Shown: in pieces, positions 2,792-48,733 of the stretch | Layout: each line of letters begins with the position of its first letter | How positions within the stretch are numbered: the stretch's first letter is position 1 | Source: Herbiconiux oxytropis | GTDB taxonomy: Bacteria > Actinomycetota > Actinomycetes > Actinomycetales > Microbacteriaceae | Assembly: GCF_024979315.1 (NCBI RefSeq) | Contig: NZ_JANLCK010000008.1 | Span: forward strand, 1-64,000 | DNA: 64,000 nt | Direction: 5' to 3' | Translations under genes and position numbers: made by a program | The notes under the pieces: generated by a model | Database searches by the model: none | Seen by the model: only the letters and a program-made list of their open reading frames with translations | What the model was told of the DNA's origin: nothing

Positions 2792-4024
2792 ATGAGCACG
2801 GCACATCCGGATGCGACGAGTGGCACGCTCCGCATCGGCACGCTGCAGAGCGACGAGGGCGACGACCCCGCCGAACTGCTCGCCGCCAAGTTCAACCGGC
2901 ACACGTTCTGGTGCGGCCAGAGCGGATCGGGCAAGACCTACGCCCTCGGCGTCGTGCTCGAGCAGCTCCTCATCGAGACCGCGCTGCCGATGCTCGTCTT
3001 CGACCCCAACGCCGACTTCGTGCGCCTGGCCGAGCTCCGCACCGCAGCTCCGGATGCGCCCGGCCGCGCCGCGGAGCGGGACGCGCTGGCGGCGCGCGAC
3101 ATCCGCATCCTCCGCCCGGCGCCCTGGGGCGGCGTGCCCGAGACCAGCGCGGCTGCGACCGGCGTGCCCGAGACCGGCGTGCCCGAGACCGGCGTGCCCG
3201 AGACCAGCGCCGCTGCGACCACCCCCACCCCCCTCCGCGCCCGCTTCGTCGAGCTCTCCACCCGCTCGAAGGCCGCCGTGCTCGGCATCGACCCGCTCCG
3301 CGACCGCCTCGAGTACAACGCCCTCCTGCGCCTCGAGGGCGAGCTCTCGAGCTCAGACGCCTACGAGATCGCGGCCCGCCTTCAGGACAGCGAGAATGCG
3401 GCAGCCCGTGATCTCGCCCTCCGGATCGAGAACCTCCAGATCATGGACTGGGAGGTCTGGGCCGGCGACGACGTGGCGGTCACCGACCTCCTCGTCGCCC
3501 CCGAGCGGCCCGACGCGACCGTGCTCGACATCGGCGGCTTCGCGCACCCCGACGAGTACCTCGTCGTGGCCCTCTCGGTGCTCGAGCACGTCTGGCGGCG
3601 CCGGGAGGAGCGCCGCCCCCTGCTGATCGTGATCGACGAGGCGCACAACCTCTGCGCCCCGGAGCAGGACTCGCCGCTCGGAGCCGCCGTGCGCGACCGC
3701 CTCGTGCAGATCGCCGCGGAGGGCCGCAAATTCGGCCTCTGGCTGCTGCTGTCGACCCAGCGCCCGTCGCGCGTGCACCCGTCGATCCTGTCGCAGTGCG
3801 ACAACCTGGCCCTCATGAAGATGAGCTCGCCTTTCGATCTCGACGAGCTCGCGAAGGTCTTCGGCTACGCGCCGCGCGAACTGCTCGAGCGGGCACCGCT
3901 CTTCCGGCAGGGCGAGGCGCTCTTCGCGGGAGGCTTCGCCGGCTCGCCCTCGGTGGTGCGCATGGGGGAGCGCCTCACGCCCGAGGGTGGAGTCGACGTC
4001 CCGATCCCGCTCAGACGCGGATGA
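2792..4024 (+). CDS. HerA/DUF87-type AAA ATPase
   Basis: 410 aa. Walker A GQSGSGKT at residues 41-48, Walker B LLIVIDEAHN near 277-286 and a sensor-like STQRPS near 322 define a HerA/FtsK-superfamily ATPase of the DUF87 type. Family members move DNA or act as motor partners of nucleases such as NurA, but no NurA, Mre11 or Rad50 gene is in this window, so the partner is unknown. A region of five-residue repeats (residues 114-143, GVPET/SAAAT) interrupts the fold between Walker A and Walker B. The ATG has a purine-rich GAGGGGGCGG just upstream. Confidence 0.8.
   Translation: MSTAHPDATSGTLRIGTLQSDEGDDPAELLAAKFNRHTFWCGQSGSGKTYALGVVLEQLLIETALPMLVFDPNADFVRLAELRTAAPDAPGRAAERDALAARDIRILRPAPWGGVPETSAAATGVPETGVPETGVPETSAAATTPTPLRARFVELSTRSKAAVLGIDPLRDRLEYNALLRLEGELSSSDAYEIAARLQDSENAAARDLALRIENLQIMDWEVWAGDDVAVTDLLVAPERPDATVLDIGGFAHPDEYLVVALSVLEHVWRRREERRPLLIVIDEAHNLCAPEQDSPLGAAVRDRLVQIAAEGRKFGLWLLLSTQRPSRVHPSILSQCDNLALMKMSSPFDLDELAKVFGYAPRELLERAPLFRQGEALFAGGFAGSPSVVRMGERLTPEGGVDVPIPLRRG
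3131..3220 (+). repeat. 15-bp tandem repeat inside the ATPase gene
   Basis: Six consecutive in-frame 15-mers: four exact copies of GGCGTGCCCGAGACC (at 3131, 3161, 3176, 3191) and two related copies encoding SAAAT (at 3146, 3206). They encode GVPET-SAAAT-GVPET-GVPET-GVPET-SAAAT. The copy number can change without breaking the frame. Confidence 0.9.
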
Positions 4025-4029
4025 CCAGC

Positions 4030-4102
4030 CTCTGTATACAGAGATGAGCTGAAATCCTTGAATCGTCGGGCTTTCGGGGATAGTCTGGCTTCGATGTATA
4101 CA
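4030..4102. promoter_or_regulatory. Paired GntR-type operators upstream of gntR-prpDBC
   Basis: A perfect 14-bp palindrome CTCTGTATACAGAG lies at 4030-4043. A second copy of its core, TGTATACA, lies at 4095-4102 within TGTATACAGAG, 12 nt before the gntR ATG. The centres are 62 bp apart, close to six helical turns. TNGTATACNA-like palindromes are the usual operators of FadR/FCD GntR regulators, so autoregulation and control of the prp operon from these sites is the likely reading. Confidence 0.7.
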
Positions 4103-4113
4103 GAGCGGATGCG

Positions 4114-4887
4114 ATGATGGCGCGGGCGAGCGACACGGCCTACGCCGCGCTCCGGGGCGAGATCATCGCCTGGCAGCTGCCGCCCGGCACCGTGCTGGCC
4201 GAGGTCGAGCTCTCGCAACGGCTCGGCATCTCCCGCACCCCGGTGCGGGAGGCCCTGGCCCGGCTCGTCGCCGACGGCCTCGTGGAGCCCCTCGGCGGTC
4301 GCGGTCTCGTGGTCACGGCCGTCTCGGCCGAGAACGTCGTCGAGCTGTTCGAGCTCCGCCAGGCCCTCGAGGCCCAGGCCTCCTCGCTCGCCGCCGAACG
4401 CCGCGACCCGGCACCGTTCCTCGCCCTGCAGGACGAGCTGCGCGAGGTGCCCGCCCTGCTGGCCGACCCCGATCCGGCCCACCGCTCCTACTACGAGCTC
4501 GTGGCCCGCTTCGACGAGGCCGTCGACGTCGCGGTGCGCAATCCGTTCCTCGTGCAGGCGCTCACGGGAGTGCGCACGCACCTCGCCCGCATCCGTCGCC
4601 TCTCCCGCGACAATCCCGCCCGCCTGCTCGAGGCCGCTCGCGAGCACCTGCTGATCGTCGACGCGATCATCGACGGCGACGCCCGTCTTGCCGCCGACGC
4701 CACCCGGGTGCACCTGCACCGGAGCCTCCGCTCCACCCTGGACTCGCTGACGCTGGCCCCCGATCCCACGACGTCGACGACCCCCGATCCCACAACGACC
4801 ACGACCCCCGATCCCACGACCCCCGATCCCACGACGACGACGAACACGACCCCCGACCCCCAGAAGAAGGGCGCTCCCGCGCGATGA
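4114..4887 (+). CDS. GntR-family (FCD) transcriptional regulator of the prp operon
   Basis: 257 aa. An N-terminal winged helix (about residues 8-72, with the [12 protein letters not shown] recognition helix) is followed by a helical FCD effector domain (about 80-215). The last ~38 residues are an unusual Pro/Asp/Thr-rich tail built from DPTT repeats, not part of the family fold. The 3' end overlaps prpD by 4 nt (ATGA), so regulator and enzymes are one operon. It probably senses a propionate-derived metabolite such as 2-methylcitrate (inference from context). ATG at 4114 or 4117 is possible. Confidence 0.85.
4757..4860 (+). repeat. Low-complexity CCCCGATCCCAC repeats at the gntR 3' end
   Basis: About five copies of CCCCGATCCCAC separated by ACGAC/ACGACC spacers encode the Pro-Asp-Pro-Thr-Thr tail of the regulator. 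The opposite strand has several runs of five G, a possible G-quadruplex-forming strand. The block ends 24 nt before the prpD start. Confidence 0.75.
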
Positions 4888-6419
4888 ACCTCCACGAAGT
4901 CCGCGTCCACAAGTCCGAGGAGAACCTCCCCCGGGAGGGCCAGCTGGCCTGGAAGATCGCCGAGGTCGCCGCCGACCCCGTGGCCGTGACCCCCGAGGTC
5001 ACCGACATGGTGATCAACCGGGTCATCGACAACGCGGCCGTCGCCGTGGCGAGCATCACCCGCGGCCCCGGCATCGCCGCCAGGGCCCAGGCCCTCGACC
5101 ACCCCTACGAGCACGGCCCGAGCGAGGCCCTCGGCCGGCACGGCGCCTCGGTCTTCGGTGTCACCGGAGGCTACAGCCCGGAGTGGGCCGCCTGGGCCAA
5201 CGGTGTGGCCGTGCGCGAGCTCGACTACCACGACACCTTCCTCGCCGCCGAGTACTCGCACCCGGGCGACAACATCCCGCCCATCCTCGCGGTGGCCCAG
5301 CACGTGGGCTGCACGGGCGGCCAGCTCGTGCGCGGCATCGCGACCGGCTACGAGATCCAGGTCGACCTCGTGAAGGCGATCAGCCTGCACAAGCACAAGA
5401 TCGATCACGTGGCCCACCTCGGCCCATCGGCCGCCGCCGGCATCGGCACGATGCTGGGCCTCCCGGAGGAGACCATCTTCCAGGCGGTGGGCCAGGCCCT
5501 GCACACCACCACCGCCACCCGGCAGTCCCGCAAGGGCGAGATCTCGACCTGGAAGGCGCACGCTCCGGCCTTCGCCGGCAAGATGGCCGTCGAAGCGGTC
5601 GACCGGGCGCTCCGCGGCCAGACGAGCCCCACCCCGATCTACGAGGGTGAGGACGGCGTGATCGCGTGGCTGCTCGACGGCCCAGACGCCCGCTACGAGG
5701 TGCCGCTGCCGGCCAAGGGCGAGGCCAAGCGCGCCATCCTCGACACCTACACGAAGGAGCACTCGGCCGAGTACCAGGCTCAGGCCTGGATCGACCTCGC
5801 CAGGAAGCTCCACGGCGAGCACCCCGAGCTCGCCGACCCGGCGAACGTCGGCAGCGTCACCATCCACACCAGCCACCACACCCACTACGTGATCGGCTCG
5901 GGCGCGAACGACCCGCAGAAGTACGACCCCACCGCGAGCCGCGAGACCCTCGACCACTCCATCCCCTACATCTTCACGGTGGCGCTGCAGGACGGCGCGT
6001 GGCACCACGTCGACTCCTACGCCCCCGAGCGTGCGGGCCGCCCCGACACGGTCGAGCTCTGGAACAAGGTGCGCACCCTCGAGGACGACGAGTGGACCCG
6101 CCGCTACCACTCCGAGGACCCGGCCGAGAAGGCCTTCGGCGGCCGCGTGGAGATCATCCTGCACGACGGCTCCACCATCACCGACGAGATCGCGGTGGCG
6201 GATGCGCATCCGCTCGGTGCACGGCCGTTCGCGCGCGCCGACTACGTGCGCAAGTTCCGCACCCTGGCCGAGGGCGTGATCGAGGAGGCCGAGATCGTGC
6301 GCTTCCTCGAGCTCGTGGAACGCCTGCCCGAACTCACCGTCGACGAGGTGCGCGAGCTCAACGTCGTGGCCCGCCCCGGCCTCCTCGAGGCGCTTCCGCT
6401 CCCGAAGGGACTCTTCTGA
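4884..6419 (+). CDS. prpD: 2-methylcitrate dehydratase, MmgE/PrpD family
   Basis: 511 aa, full length for PrpD. It dehydrates 2-methylcitrate to 2-methyl-cis-aconitate in the methylcitrate cycle that oxidises propionyl-CoA. The conserved RELDYHDTF and [14 protein letters not shown] segments (about residues 110-140) and the HTTTATRQ / [18 protein letters not shown] block (about 205-236) are typical of the family. It is translationally coupled to gntR (ATGA) and, at its own stop, to the first mini-ORF of the 62-bp repeat (TGATG). Cytoplasmic. Confidence 0.95.
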
Positions 6420-6481
6420 TGCTGTACTCGGCGACGTCGACGTTCACCACTCGCGAAGCTCGAAAGACAGGACTCTTCTGA
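6419..6481 (+). CDS. Mini-ORF 1 (20 aa) of the prpD-prpB repeat
   Basis: ATG at 6419 overlaps the prpD stop (TGATG). The peptide starts MLYSATSTF and ends RKTGLF; no known family. The stop at 6479-6481 shares its A with the start of mini-ORF 2. An AGGA or AAGG sequence 8-12 nt before each start could act as a ribosome binding site. Whether the peptide has a role beyond passing ribosomes on is unknown. Confidence 0.45.
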   Translation: MLYSATSTFTTREARKTGLF

Positions 6482-6543
6482 TGCTGTACTCGGCGACGTC
6501 GACGTTCACCACTCGCGAAGCTCGAAAGACAGGACTCTTCTGA
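6481..6543 (+). CDS. Mini-ORF 2 (20 aa) of the prpD-prpB repeat
   Basis: Identical to mini-ORF 1 but in the next reading frame; start and stop both lie in TGATG overlaps. Confidence 0.45.
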   Translation: MLYSATSTFTTREARKTGLF

Positions 6544-6605
6544 TGCTGTACTCGGCGACGTCGACGTTCACCACTCGCGAAGCTCGAAAGACAGGACTCT
6601 TCTGA
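6543..6605 (+). CDS. Mini-ORF 3 (20 aa) of the prpD-prpB repeat
   Basis: Identical to the two preceding copies. Its TGA shares the A of the prpB ATG at 6605, so translation can pass from prpD through three mini-ORFs into prpB. Confidence 0.45.
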   Translation: MLYSATSTFTTREARKTGLF

Positions 6606-7510
6606 TGCTGTACTCCACCGTTCCGGCCCACGAGAAGCGCGCCGCCTTCCGGGCCGCCCTCGACAGCGGCGAGCTGCAGCGGATGCCCGGCGCGTTCAAC
6701 CCGCTGAGCGCCCGCCTCATCGAGGAGAAGGGCTTCGAGGGCGTCTACATCTCGGGCGCCGTCATCGCGGCCGACCTCGGCTTTCCCGACATCGGCCTGA
6801 CGACCCTCACCGAGGTCGCGGCCCGCGGCGGCCAGATCTCCCGGATGACGAACCTGCCGACGCTCATCGACGCCGACACGGGCTTCGGCGAGCCGATGAA
6901 CGTGGCGCGCACCGTGCAGACCCTCGAAGACGCCGGGGTCTCCGGCCTCCACATCGAGGACCAGGTGAACCCCAAGCGCTGCGGTCACCTCGACGGCAAG
7001 GCCGTGGTCGACGCCGACACCGCGGTCAAGCGCATCCGGGCCGCCGTCGATGCGCGGCGCGACCCGAACCTGCTCATCATGGCGCGCACCGACATCCGGG
7101 CGAACGACGGGCTCGGAGCCGCGATCGACCGCGCCAAGCAGCTCGTCGACGCCGGGGCCGACGCGATCTTCCCCGAGGCGATGGCCGATCTCTCCGAGTT
7201 CGAGGCCGTGCGGAAGGCCGTCGACGTGCCGATCCTGGCGAACATGACCGAGTTCGGCAAGAGCGAGCTGTTCTCGAACCAGCAGCTGGCCGATGTGGGC
7301 ATCAACCTCGTGATCTACCCCGTGTCGCTCCTGCGCATCGCCATGGGCGCGGCCGAGCGCGGTCTCGACGCACTCGTCGCCGAAGGTTCACTGAAGAGCG
7401 AGGTCACAGGCATGCAGACCCGTGCGAGGCTCTATGAACTGCTCGACTATCCCTCCTACAACTCGTTCGACACATCCGTGTTCAACTTCGACGTCCCCAC
7501 CGCTCGCTGA
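6605..7510 (+). CDS. prpB: Methylisocitrate lyase
   Basis: 301 aa, normal length for the isocitrate lyase/PEP mutase superfamily. It cleaves 2-methylisocitrate to pyruvate and succinate. DADTGFGEP (residues 89-97) binds Mg2+, and the catalytic loop KRCGH (124-128, Cys126) is the signature that separates PrpB from isocitrate lyases. Translation is probably coupled through the mini-ORF chain. The next gene, prpC, starts 11 nt after its stop. Confidence 0.96.
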   Translation: MLYSTVPAHEKRAAFRAALDSGELQRMPGAFNPLSARLIEEKGFEGVYISGAVIAADLGFPDIGLTTLTEVAARGGQISRMTNLPTLIDADTGFGEPMNVARTVQTLEDAGVSGLHIEDQVNPKRCGHLDGKAVVDADTAVKRIRAAVDARRDPNLLIMARTDIRANDGLGAAIDRAKQLVDAGADAIFPEAMADLSEFEAVRKAVDVPILANMTEFGKSELFSNQQLADVGINLVIYPVSLLRIAMGAAERGLDALVAEGSLKSEVTGMQTRARLYELLDYPSYNSFDTSVFNFDVPTAR

Positions 7511-7521
7511 GGAGTGCTGAC

Positions 7522-8640
7522 ATGACCGAACCGTCCGACATCAAGAAGGGCCTCGCCGGGGTGGTGGTCGATTACACCGCCATCTCGAAGGTCAACCCCG
7601 AGACCAACTCGCTGCTCTACCGCGGCTACCCCGTGCAGGAGCTCGCGGCCTCGTGCTCGTTCGAACAGGTCGCCTACCTGCTCTGGAACGGCGAGCTGCC
7701 GAGCGCGCCCGAGCTCGAGGCCTTCGAGCAGCTCGAGCGCTCGCAGCGGGCACTCGACCCGGCGGTCACGCGCGTGATCGACGAGCTGCCGCTCACGGCG
7801 CATCCGATGGACGTGGTGCGCACCGCCGTGAGCGTCGTCGGCGCCCTCGACCCCGAGTGGGAGGACGCGAGCGCCGCCGGAACCCTCGCCAAGTCGGTCG
7901 CGCTGCTGGCCAAGATCCCCGCGATCGTCTCCTACGACCAGCGCCGACGCCGGGGTCAGGACGTCGTGGAGCCGGATGCCTCGCTCGGCTACTCGGCGAA
8001 CTTCCTGCGCATGACCTTCGGCGAGGTGCCGAGCGACGTGGTCGTGAAGGCCTTCGACGTGTCGATGATCCTCTACGCCGAGCACTCCTTCAACGCCTCC
8101 ACCTTCACGGCCCGCGTGGTGACCTCCACGCTCTCGGACCTGTACTCCGCGGTCGTCGCGGGCATCGGCGCCCTCAAGGGCCCGCTGCACGGCGGTGCGA
8201 ACGAGGCGGTCATGCACATCTTCGACGAGATCGGATCGGCCGACGCCGCAGAGGGCTGGCTCGAGGATGCGCTCGCGAACAAGAAGAAGATCATGGGCTT
8301 CGGCCACCGGGTCTACAAGAACGGCGACTCGCGCGTGCCCACCATGAAGGCCTCGCTCGACACCCTGATCGAGGAGTACGACCGGCCCGACCTGCTCGCG
8401 CTCTATGACGCGCTGAACGAGGCGATGCAGTCGCGGAAGGCCATCCAGCCGAACCTCGACTACCCGTCGGGGCCGGCCTACCACCTCATGGGGTTCGACA
8501 CCGAGCTGTTCACGCCGCTGTTCGTGGCGTCGCGCATCACGGGCTGGACAGCGCACATCCGGGAGCAGCTCGCCTCGAACGCGCTCATCCGCCCGCTCTC
8601 GGAGTACAACGGCCCGGACGAGCGGCACGTGCAGGCCTGA
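7522..8640 (+). CDS. prpC: 2-methylcitrate synthase (citrate synthase family)
   Basis: 372 aa. It condenses propionyl-CoA with oxaloacetate. The LHGGANE segment (about residues 223-229) and the GFGHRVYK active-site block (259-266) are typical of small bacterial citrate synthases; position in a prp operon marks it as the methylcitrate enzyme. A GAGGAG Shine-Dalgarno precedes the ATG. It is the last gene of the operon; the next gene (lrp) is convergent, 9 nt away. Confidence 0.94.
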   Translation: MTEPSDIKKGLAGVVVDYTAISKVNPETNSLLYRGYPVQELAASCSFEQVAYLLWNGELPSAPELEAFEQLERSQRALDPAVTRVIDELPLTAHPMDVVRTAVSVVGALDPEWEDASAAGTLAKSVALLAKIPAIVSYDQRRRRGQDVVEPDASLGYSANFLRMTFGEVPSDVVVKAFDVSMILYAEHSFNASTFTARVVTSTLSDLYSAVVAGIGALKGPLHGGANEAVMHIFDEIGSADAAEGWLEDALANKKKIMGFGHRVYKNGDSRVPTMKASLDTLIEEYDRPDLLALYDALNEAMQSRKAIQPNLDYPSGPAYHLMGFDTELFTPLFVASRITGWTAHIREQLASNALIRPLSEYNGPDERHVQA

Positions 8641-8649
8641 CTCCCGGTG

Positions 8650-9156
8650 TCAGTGCTCACCTGGGACGGCGTCGCGGATGCGGCCCCAGGTGCTGCCCTC
8701 GTCCATGTGCTCCACGCCGATCAGGTGGTCGAAGATGATGTTCGTCTGGGTCGAGGCGACCGAGCTGTCGAGGCTCAGCTCGGTCGCCACGAAGTCGCGC
8801 AGCTGCCCGGTCGATGAGCAGGCGACGTGGATGAGGAAGTCGTCGGCACCGCCCAGGAAGAAGACGTTGAGCACGTTCGGCAGCGTGATCACCCGCTGCG
8901 CGTAGGTCTTGATCTGCGCACGGGCCTGGGCCTTGAGGCGCACGGCCACGATCGCCTCGATCGGCAGCCCCATCGACGCCCAGTCGGGCTGGGCGTGGAA
9001 CGACCTCAGCGCCCCGCTGGCCTGCAGCGCCCGCACGCGCATGAGGCACGTCGACGGCGCGATCCCCACGCGCTCCGCGAGCTCTTTGTTGGGCAGCCTC
9101 CCCTCGCGGCAGAGCTCCCAGACGATCCGCTCGTCGATTTCATCGATGGTGCCCAT
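8650..9156 (-). CDS. Lrp/AsnC-family regulator
   Basis: 168 aa. An N-terminal helix-turn-helix (residues about 5-55, with NKELAERVGIAPSTCLMRVRAL) is followed by a RAM ligand-binding domain. It is divergent from the alanine dehydrogenase gene, the standard arrangement for an alanine-responsive Lrp (AldR-type) activator. A GGGAGA sequence lies 10 nt upstream of the ATG. Confidence 0.92.
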   Translation of the reverse strand: MGTIDEIDERIVWELCREGRLPNKELAERVGIAPSTCLMRVRALQASGALRSFHAQPDWASMGLPIEAIVAVRLKAQARAQIKTYAQRVITLPNVLNVFFLGGADDFLIHVACSSTGQLRDFVATELSLDSSVASTQTNIIFDHLIGVEHMDEGSTWGRIRDAVPGEH

Positions 9157-9169
9157 GCGTGCGTTCTCC

Positions 9170-9238
9170 CGAATCCGGATACGCCTTCTGGCGCACAGAC
9201 CAAATTATATTCGGACTTCGTGACAGCATCCGGAATCG
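9170..9238. promoter_or_regulatory. lrp/ald divergent control region
   Basis: Between the divergent starts lie a near-perfect inverted pair, CGAATCCGGAT (9170-9180) and ATCCGGAATCG (9228-9238, one mismatch), and an AT-rich core AAATTATATT around 9202-9211 that stands out in this GC-rich DNA. Lrp operators are typically degenerate AT-rich palindromes; TATATT inside the core could also be the ald -10. Confidence 0.45.
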
Positions 9239-47797: not shown

Positions 47798-48733
47798 ATG
47801 AGCCCCGCCGCATCAACCGACGAGTCCGACCACGCGCCCTCGACAGCGCTGCCCTCGACAGCGCTCCCCTCGACAGCGCTCCCCTCGACAGCGCTCCCCT
47901 CGACAGCGCTCCCCTCGATTGCACTCCTCGGTGCCGGATCGATGGGCCGCGCCATCTTGAGCGGGCTGCTCGCGCCGGGTGTCGAGGTGCAGGGCGGAAT
48001 CCGCGTGACCAACCGCTCGGCCGCCAAGGCCGCCGACCTCGACGGCACGGCCGGCGTGACCGCGTTCGCCACCGACGACGACCCCGAGGCCAACCGCAAG
48101 GCCGTCTCGGGTGCTGCCATCGTGCTCGTGGCGGTCAAGCCCGCCATGGTCCCCGACCTCCTCGACGAGATCGCCGACGCCCTCGACGACGGCGCGATCG
48201 TGGTGAGCGTGGCGGCCGGGGTGACCGTGAGCACGTTCGAGAAGCACCTGCCCGCCTCGGTCTCCGTCATCCGCTCGATGCCGAACACGCCGGCTGTCGT
48301 GGGCAGGGCCGTGACCGGCCTCTCGGCGGGGACCCGCTCGAGCGCGGAGGAGCTCGCCCTGGTGCGCTCGCTCTTCGAGACGGTGGGGACTGTGGTGGAG
48401 GTGCCGGAATCACAGCTCGATGCTCTCAGCACCATCTCCGGCTCTGGCCCCGCCTACGTGTATCTGTTGATAGAGGCTCTGACCGAGGCGGCTGTGCAGA
48501 AGGGGTTCACCGCCGAGCAGGCCGCCGAGCTCGTCAACGGCACCTTCGCGGGAGCCGCCGAGCTCCTCGTGCGGAGCGGCGAGACCCCCACCGACCTCCG
48601 CATCCAAGTCACGAGCCCGAAGGGCACCACCGAGCGCGCCCTCGCGGTGCTGCAGGAGGCCGATCTCCCGGAGCTCTTCGGCCGTGCCACCGACGCCGCA
48701 CTCGCCCGCGCCCGCGAGCTCGCCGCGGGCTGA
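47798..48733 (+). CDS. proC: Pyrroline-5-carboxylate reductase with repeat-containing N-terminal extension
   Basis: 311 aa. It makes proline from pyrroline-5-carboxylate. The enzyme proper starts IALLGAGSMGRAIL (about residue 42) and ends with the family signature around VTSPKGTTERAL. Before it lie 41 extra residues, of which residues 14-43 are PSTAL repeats. Leaderless ATG: TAGGAT lies 6 nt upstream. A start just before the enzyme domain is not available as ATG/GTG, so the extension is probably translated. Confidence 0.93.
   Translation: MSPAASTDESDHAPSTALPSTALPSTALPSTALPSTALPSIALLGAGSMGRAILSGLLAPGVEVQGGIRVTNRSAAKAADLDGTAGVTAFATDDDPEANRKAVSGAAIVLVAVKPAMVPDLLDEIADALDDGAIVVSVAAGVTVSTFEKHLPASVSVIRSMPNTPAVVGRAVTGLSAGTRSSAEELALVRSLFETVGTVVEVPESQLDALSTISGSGPAYVYLLIEALTEAAVQKGFTAEQAAELVNGTFAGAAELLVRSGETPTDLRIQVTSPKGTTERALAVLQEADLPELFGRATDAALARARELAAG
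47837..47926 (+). repeat. 15-bp tandem repeat in the proC 5' end
   Basis: Six consecutive 15-mers encode PSTAL (five copies; four are exactly CCCTCGACAGCGCTC) and a final PSIAL that leads into the enzyme fold. It looks like in-frame expansion of the ancestral N-terminus. Confidence 0.95.

Follow-up and report, generated by a model that had tools for sequence, protein, structure and literature searches.

Bridging frames in unrelated inserts at the prpD-prpB junction of Herbiconiux oxytropis and its relatives, including a chain of three identical mini-ORFs

The first 64,000 nucleotides of contig NZ_JANLCK010000008.1 of Herbiconiux oxytropis (assembly GCF_024979315.1), here called the window, contain a tandem array between prpD and prpB, the genes for 2-methylcitrate dehydratase and methylisocitrate lyase. 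The array encodes three identical, overlapping mini open reading frames (mini-ORFs). Judged from the sequence, these are probably bridging mini-cistrons that keep termination-reinitiation coupling between the two genes across an insertion. At the same junction in other lineages, bridging frames are preserved in inserts that are unrelated in sequence.

Results

Structure of the array

The array consists of three perfect 62-bp units and one additional 22-bp junction copy (Table 1). Tandem Repeats Finder (TRF) reports it with a period of 62, 3.4 copies and 100% matches. Each unit combines a 22-bp junction, made up of the prpD end and the prpB start (GGACTCTTCTGATGCTGTACTC), with a 40-bp filler. 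Within the array the junction is present four times and the filler three times. TGATG forms all four joints (prpD/1, 1/2, 2/3 and 3/prpB), the last start in the series is that of prpB, and the mini-ORF peptides are identical. Because the unit includes the junction, duplication copies TGATG, and the four occurrences are one fact rather than four coincidences. An earlier note on this DNA had described three perfect 62-bp copies, 20-codon ORFs and TGATG at four joints, and both the TRF result and the ORF listing bear this out. The array is confirmed as a feature, with the copy number of three subject to sequencing reads.

As a repeat, the array lies well outside what chance would give. A 464-kb sample, made up of the window and 20 further stretches of its genome (20 kb each), gives 136 TRF rows, of which 4 have a period of at least 25 and at least 95% matches. 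The other three such rows have units of 27-33 bp and at most 2.5 copies.

Survey of prpD-prpB junctions

The loci compared were chosen by likeness to the window prpB and are not a random sample. They comprise the 80 best prpB matches, the window, 14 genus genomes and 139 of 316 matching family genomes (234 loci). Nine of the 234 loci have no detectable prpD, which leaves 225, and 13 are exact duplicates; both kinds were dropped before counting, leaving 212 distinct loci. Among these 212 junctions, 167 have a one-base overlap (-1), 14 a gap of 0-4 nt, 9 a gap of 5-20 nt and 22 a gap of more than 20 nt.

An unbroken, TGATG-joined chain runs from the prpD stop to the prpB start in 17 of the 22 long-gap junctions. 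The chain is a single ORF in 15 loci, two ORFs in one (L248) and three ORFs in the window. The 15 single ORFs are open across 31-286 nt and have TGATG at both ends. At L047, the bridging ORF stops 1 nt before prpB. The remaining four long gaps (L172, L211, L231 and L261) are unbridged and have no start at the prpD stop. A prpD/prpB tree (FastTree, about 510 nt from the ends of the two genes) requires at least 11 changes of the bridged state, with gains and losses not distinguishable.

The 18 bridged inserts, L047 included, fall into 13 sequence groups (blastn, E<=1e-3). These are L002 with the window, L011 with L022, L047 and L052, L044 with L063, and ten singletons. At the same threshold, the four unbridged inserts match no bridged insert. 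Among the 16 single-ORF loci, similarity between bridging peptides is confined to L022, L047 and L052 and to the pair L044 and L063 (E<=0.01).

Bridging frames and chance

In the single-ORF cases, 15 of 16 inserts have a gap of 1 modulo 3 and an open frame. The expected number is 3.2 (P=2e-10), calculated as one third for register multiplied by the openness found in 1,000 dinucleotide shuffles of each insert. When each of 10 tree groups, with representatives hand-picked from the leaf order, is reduced to its one most permissive row, all 10 agree (P=1.7e-7). With L047, the miss, as the representative of its group, the probability of at least 9 of 10 is 7.5e-6. L248 and the window are left out of the 1.7e-7 figure because they have more than one unit, and the window's group is represented by L002. 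Since the direct TGATG is the common state, these P values presuppose a TGATG at the end of prpD. The TGATG at the prpB end, present in 15 of the 16 cases, plays no part in them. These results support the view that, at the loci examined, bridging frames are retained much more often than chance would allow.

History of the unit within the genus

A direct TGATG joint of prpD and prpB is present in 14 of 16 genus genomes, and all 14 have AAGGG in the final prpD codons. The nearest sampled relative of the window in its genus is the metagenome-assembled genome Herbiconiux sp. nzgw90 (G014, identical with locus L002 by contig coordinates). It has a single unit in which the frame and both TGATG joints are kept. 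In this comparison between species, the number of units in the genus is 0 (14 genomes), 1 (G014) or 3 (window), and chains of one and two are found elsewhere. The chain of overlapping mini-ORFs linking prpD to prpB, as read in the earlier note, is upheld, and its number of units varies among relatives.

The mini-ORFs of G014 and the window differ by four substitutions (S4P, T8M, F9C and F20V), all of which are nonsynonymous and none of which lies at a third position. At codon positions 1 and 2, 4 of 42 sites differ in the mini-ORF versus 21 of 1626 in prpD and prpB together (p=0.003). At third positions, the counts are 0 of 21 versus 89 of 813 in the flanking genes (p=0.15). The flanking differences lie mainly at third positions (53 of 512 in prpD, 36 of 301 in prpB), with few at first and second positions. 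The peptide is not conserved; what is kept is the frame length and both overlaps.

A function of the 20-residue peptide itself, as a small protein or leader peptide, would agree with the intact frame in both genomes that carry the unit. It is extremely improbable given that only nonsynonymous changes separate the two peptides and that the bridging peptides of the 16 single-ORF loci are mostly unrelated, and it was rejected on these grounds.

Both flanks of the array in the window keep the sequence common to the genus. We infer one insertion before the window and G014 diverged, followed by expansion to three identical copies.

The window filler does not belong to any recognised repeat. In the window's own 4.13-Mb genome, a 30-nt filler core is found at up to three mismatches only in the three array copies. 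A second 30-nt core is found at one place in G014, in none of the 14 other genus genomes, and in 1 of 398 sampled family genomes, which is the window's own (the sample being without G014). A 20-nt piece has two places with three mismatches in the own genome versus one for the reversed control. Plasmid records give partial matches only, with a lowest E of 0.4 among the best 10 of 25 records. A 14-nt filler match 3' of prpB in relatives (E 0.055) was judged to be due to chance.

The true copy number in the window might be lower or higher than three, for example one as in G014, if the assembly is in error. The array (208 bp, 62-bp period) exceeds short assembly k-mers, the genome is a draft of 32 contigs, and the single copy in G014 is also uncertain at a coverage of 4.88. 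Against this, assemblers collapse tandem copies more often than they invent them, the unit is seen independently in G014, and the two units of a second chain, in genome G023, are non-identical. Such an error is very unlikely.

Nature of the inserts

The inserts of L011, L022, L047 and L052, all from Microbacterium, carry a core that is repeated in their own genomes. The core GGTCGTTGAGCGAGCG is found at up to one mismatch in 20, 51, 64 and 70 places in these four genomes, respectively, and reversed controls are found in 0 or 1 place. In the window's genome it is found in 3 places versus 1 for the control. The L248 insert (G023) contains a 33-nt core with 60 places in that genome at up to three mismatches (reversed control 0 or 1). 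At L248 there are two repeat copies 71 bp apart, and the units of 71 and 65 bp are non-identical. Among 34 other stretches of G023 with copies of this repetitive extragenic palindromic (REP) element, a crude ORF scan made without a gene caller finds no second clear ATG-started TGATG bridge. In that scan, REP copies therefore give no sign of the preference for coupled junctions known from MIRUs (mycobacterial interspersed repetitive units).

A further REP array with a 59-bp repeat is present in G023 at L318 (1216-1500). It contains three 20-codon frames linked by TTGA with 4-nt overlaps. These frames follow an upstream ORF whose end falls within the first repeat, and they may be incidental. L318 was not counted as a bridge, as the likely start of the downstream gene lies further on.

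In the Microbacteriaceae, the gaps of L044 and L063 hold inverted-repeat inserts that share the ends GTACCGTT...CATTCGGTAC and are similar by blastn. The gaps of L038 and L049 also hold inverted-repeat inserts, with shared ends GTATTCAGTC...GACTGAATAC that were seen by eye only.

For six of the 18 bridged inserts (L022, L031, L038, L044, L052 and L196), 0-2 of 100 shuffles fold better than the insert itself. The other 12 do not fold significantly better than shuffles. These include the window array, for which 91 of 100 shuffles are as low, and the single window unit likewise has no excess folding (z +0.48). The proposal that the relatives' inserts are mostly hairpins was rejected, since the shuffle test supports it for 6 of 18 only. 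In the window, no Rfam match at gathering scores is found in 4000-9200, and no promoter-like or terminator-like match is found in 6200-6800.

These data bear on the possibility that the function resides in the insert's structure or sequence, in mRNA stability, processing, termination or as an internal promoter, and that the ORF only lets ribosomes through. The six well-folding inserts and the repeated cores of L011, L022, L047, L052 and L248 are consistent with it. So is the promoter activity reported in PMC4213456 for a senX3-regX3 spacer that bears MIRUs. The 12 inserts that do not fold significantly better than shuffles, the window's among them, and the lack of promoter-like, terminator-like or Rfam matches at the window locus make it very doubtful.

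Shine-Dalgarno signals

In 17 of 18 bridged loci and 153 of 167 direct junctions, a Shine-Dalgarno (SD)-like tetramer precedes prpB at -19 to -4. The mean SD duplex energy is -7.4 kcal/mol at bridged loci, -4.5 kcal/mol at direct junctions and -2.6 kcal/mol in other insert windows. Unlike the bridged mean, the signal before the window prpB is weak. Its -19 to -4 region forms a -3.7 kcal/mol duplex with a 7-nt anti-SD, a value matched by 22 of 156 other array windows. With a 15-nt anti-SD tail, the AAGGGA motif in the final prpD codons reaches -9.2 kcal/mol versus -7.1 kcal/mol for the unit end.

Among the 80 best prpB-like loci, GGA is the third codon before the prpD stop in 32 of 50 junctions with a -1 overlap. 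In the window prpD, prpB and prpC together, GGA accounts for 5 of 88 glycine codons. GGA near the prpD end appears as if retained for an embedded SD.

Discussion

Coupling across the insertion

A one-base stop/start overlap together with an SD inside the upstream ORF is a hallmark of termination-reinitiation coupling. At an intergenic distance of 38 nt, reinitiation is down by 80-90% in two Escherichia coli pairs and abolished in a third (PMC10666635). Because coupling falls steeply with distance, an insert between prpD and prpB would be expected to break the coupling of prpB unless ribosomes translate it all the way from stop to start, and 17 of the 22 long junctions have this appearance.

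The ancestral state is TGATG, a one-base prpD/prpB overlap, and the final prpD codons contain an SD-like motif. The following sequence of events is proposed. In the common ancestor with G014, 40 nt and a duplicate of the 22-bp junction would have entered this overlap. The insert would have been tolerated because it closes an ORF from the prpD stop to the prpB start. A ribosome ending prpD would reinitiate, read 20 codons, terminate and reinitiate at prpB, with the peptide a mere carrier for the ribosome. The 22-bp direct repeats could then have allowed slippage or unequal recombination to produce three identical units, and any copy number would leave both proteins and all overlaps intact. If a fraction e of ribosomes passes each step, three units would scale the direct-junction yield by about e^3, with any de novo initiation added to this. 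We infer that the mini-ORFs are translated, that reinitiation dominates over de novo initiation and that a slippage step took place.

Several observations weigh against bridging by coupled mini-cistrons. A single open frame of 20 codons is unremarkable. The frame is open in 69% of simulations with a random 40-nt filler of the same composition, and the chain is closed in 21% of simulations with filler of random length (20-80 nt), so the window locus alone is no proof of selection on the frame. In the survey, the signal is mostly one of register, and each other frame is stop-free in 9 of 16 inserts too. Where L011, L022, L047 and L052 share a core, the repeat itself may account for the open frame. 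Since 27 of 212 junctions lack both overlap and bridge (14 with a gap of 0-4 nt, 9 with a gap of 5-20 nt and 4 longer), the overlap is not indispensable; coupling may persist at the 14 with the shortest gaps. De novo initiation of prpB could suffice, because the SDs of bridged loci are as strong as or stronger than those of direct junctions. In reporter work, bioBF is without coupling despite its overlap (PMC6728339). The copy number of three depends on one assembly.

Some of these points agree with a neutral insertion, in which prpB is initiated de novo from its own SD and the mini-ORFs are untranslated by-products. The SD-like tetramer before prpB in nearly all bridged loci, the openness of most random 40-nt fillers and the junctions without overlap or bridge are all compatible with this. 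However, a neutral insertion fails to predict that 15 of 16 mostly unrelated single inserts have the right register, an open frame and a closing TGATG, and it is quite improbable.

The number of units could also set the PrpB/PrpD ratio, with selection or phase variation acting on copy number. Such tuning would be in line with the copy numbers of 0, 1 and 3 among relatives and with the second chain, of two units, in G023. The 22-bp direct repeats that flank each filler are a substrate for reversible slippage, and incomplete reinitiation would result in a multiplicative loss at each junction. The three identical copies in one assembly could equally reflect recent neutral expansion, and more than one unit is present in only 2 of 18 bridged loci. 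Tuning is unlikely. A broader proposal treats the prpD-prpB overlap as a recurrent landing site at which most inserts survive as a relay cistron. In the window, a reversible variable-number relay (0-1-2-3) would then set PrpB/PrpD stoichiometry by the number of termination-reinitiation steps. Taken as a whole, this is distinctly unlikely. Coupling kept alive across the insertion by bridging mini-cistrons is better supported than copy-number tuning of PrpB.

What began as an odd single repeat becomes evidence, from comparison of many loci, that insertions of many different sequences at one junction leave a stop/start overlap in place. If this holds in wider samples, it would provide evolutionary, reporter-independent evidence that termination-reinitiation coupling matters in living cells. 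It would also provide a natural series of 0, 1, 2 and 3 steps for measuring the efficiency of each step. The bridged loci also suggest that serial cistrons can go unnoticed in spacers of 31-286 nt.

Flanking genes and other features of the window

The gene order around the array is a GntR-type regulator, prpD, prpB and prpC (Table 1). The prpD product matches NCBIfam NF042438 with an E of 1.4e-261 and a score of 868, which is under the cut-off of 950. A prpB start further upstream was rejected, as no in-frame ATG, GTG or TTG lies between the preceding stop and 6605. Stop/start overlaps are already present one gene earlier, where the regulator and prpD share ATGA at 4884-4887.

Other repeats are present in the window. 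A 15-bp tandem array with 5.5 copies and 98% matches (TRF) lies at 47837-47918. A repeat at 4757-4861 lies inside the regulator ORF and gives a TTTTPDP-like C-terminus. A GVPET repeat at 3130-3220 lies inside an ORF labelled ATPase-like from its sequence only.

Table 1. Coordinates of the array, the flanking genes and the SD-like motifs, given as window positions.
Feature	Position	Strand	Basis
Whole array	6408..6615	+	TRF 100%, filler positions
22-bp junction copies	6408-6429, 6470-6491, 6532-6553, 6594-6615	+	Sequence
40-bp fillers	6430-6469, 6492-6531, 6554-6593	+	Sequence
Mini-ORF 1, 20 codons, -1 overlap at both ends	6419..6481	+	Sequence
Mini-ORF 2, identical to mini-ORF 1	6481..6543	+	Sequence
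Mini-ORF 3, identical; TGA overlaps prpB ATG	6543..6605	+	Sequence
GntR-type regulator, 4-nt overlap with prpD (ATGA 4884-4887)	4114..4887	+	ORF; NCBIfam matches all below cut-off
prpD, 2-methylcitrate dehydratase, stop TGA 6417-6419	4884..6419	+	ORF; NCBIfam NF042438
prpB, methylisocitrate lyase	6605..7510	+	ORF; NCBIfam TIGR02317 above cut-off
SD-like AAGGGA in final prpD codons, 8 nt before mini-ORF 1 start	6405..6410	+	Sequence
SD-like AGGA before prpB	6593..6596	+	Sequence
SD-like AGGA, equivalent place in other units	6469-6472, 6531-6534	+	Sequence

Comparison with known systems

In the literature searched (titles and abstract openings of open-licence papers), no bridging mini-ORFs are described at the prpD-prpB junction. 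The same titles and abstract openings show no recurrence of different bridging inserts at one junction and no such chains outside mycobacteria.

The bicistronic design of synthetic biology resembles the array in that a short leader ORF brings ribosomes to the gene that follows. In this design the SD lies within the leader, and stop and start overlap. The window chain differs in being natural, inside an operon and up to three in series. REP and Rickettsia palindromic elements are similar in that palindromic repeats are tolerated in expressed DNA. Rickettsia elements insert in frame and extend a protein, whereas the prpD-prpB inserts form separate overlapping cistrons. REP elements have a palindromic core and a high copy number. 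The insert cores of L248, L011, L022, L047 and L052 share the high copy number. The window filler is found at a single locus, has no excess folding and is not a REP.

Termination-reinitiation pairs, as described in PMC6728339 and PMC10666635, share with the window a one-base overlap and an SD-like motif in the upstream ORF, here at four junctions. The stop/start overlap of coupled pairs is -1 or -4, and all window junctions are -1. In those pairs coupling runs from gene to gene, whereas in the window it would run via serial mini-cistrons. The axe-txe minigene (PMC8708949) is also a tiny intra-operon ORF that influences the translation of the next gene. It is apparently neither a repeat nor a bridge across an insertion.

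MIRUs share two features with the array. They contain a small ORF that overlaps the flanking stop and start, as TGATG does at the four window junctions, and they form identical tandem copies in an operon spacer. MIRU copy number varies among strains, which is the basis of typing by variable-number tandem repeats (MIRU-VNTR). The senX3-regX3 spacer of Mycobacterium tuberculosis H37Rv holds three identical 77-bp MIRUs, and that of CDC1551 has two 77-bp MIRUs and one of 53 bp (PMC4213456). The remark in the earlier note that it knew of no described example does not hold, because MIRUs have the architecture of the array and are a precedent for it. There are also differences. MIRUs are interspersed, whereas the window unit is found at one locus, and the MIRU coupling spacing is -4 nt (PMC12548453), whereas the window junctions are all -1. 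The likeness noted here is one of architecture. MIRUs are one repeat family, whereas the prpD-prpB inserts of other genera are diverse (13 groups). The principle by which bridging mini-cistrons preserve the coupling of a junction is already known from MIRUs. The prpD-prpB inserts suggest that it extends beyond mycobacteria and beyond a single repeat family.

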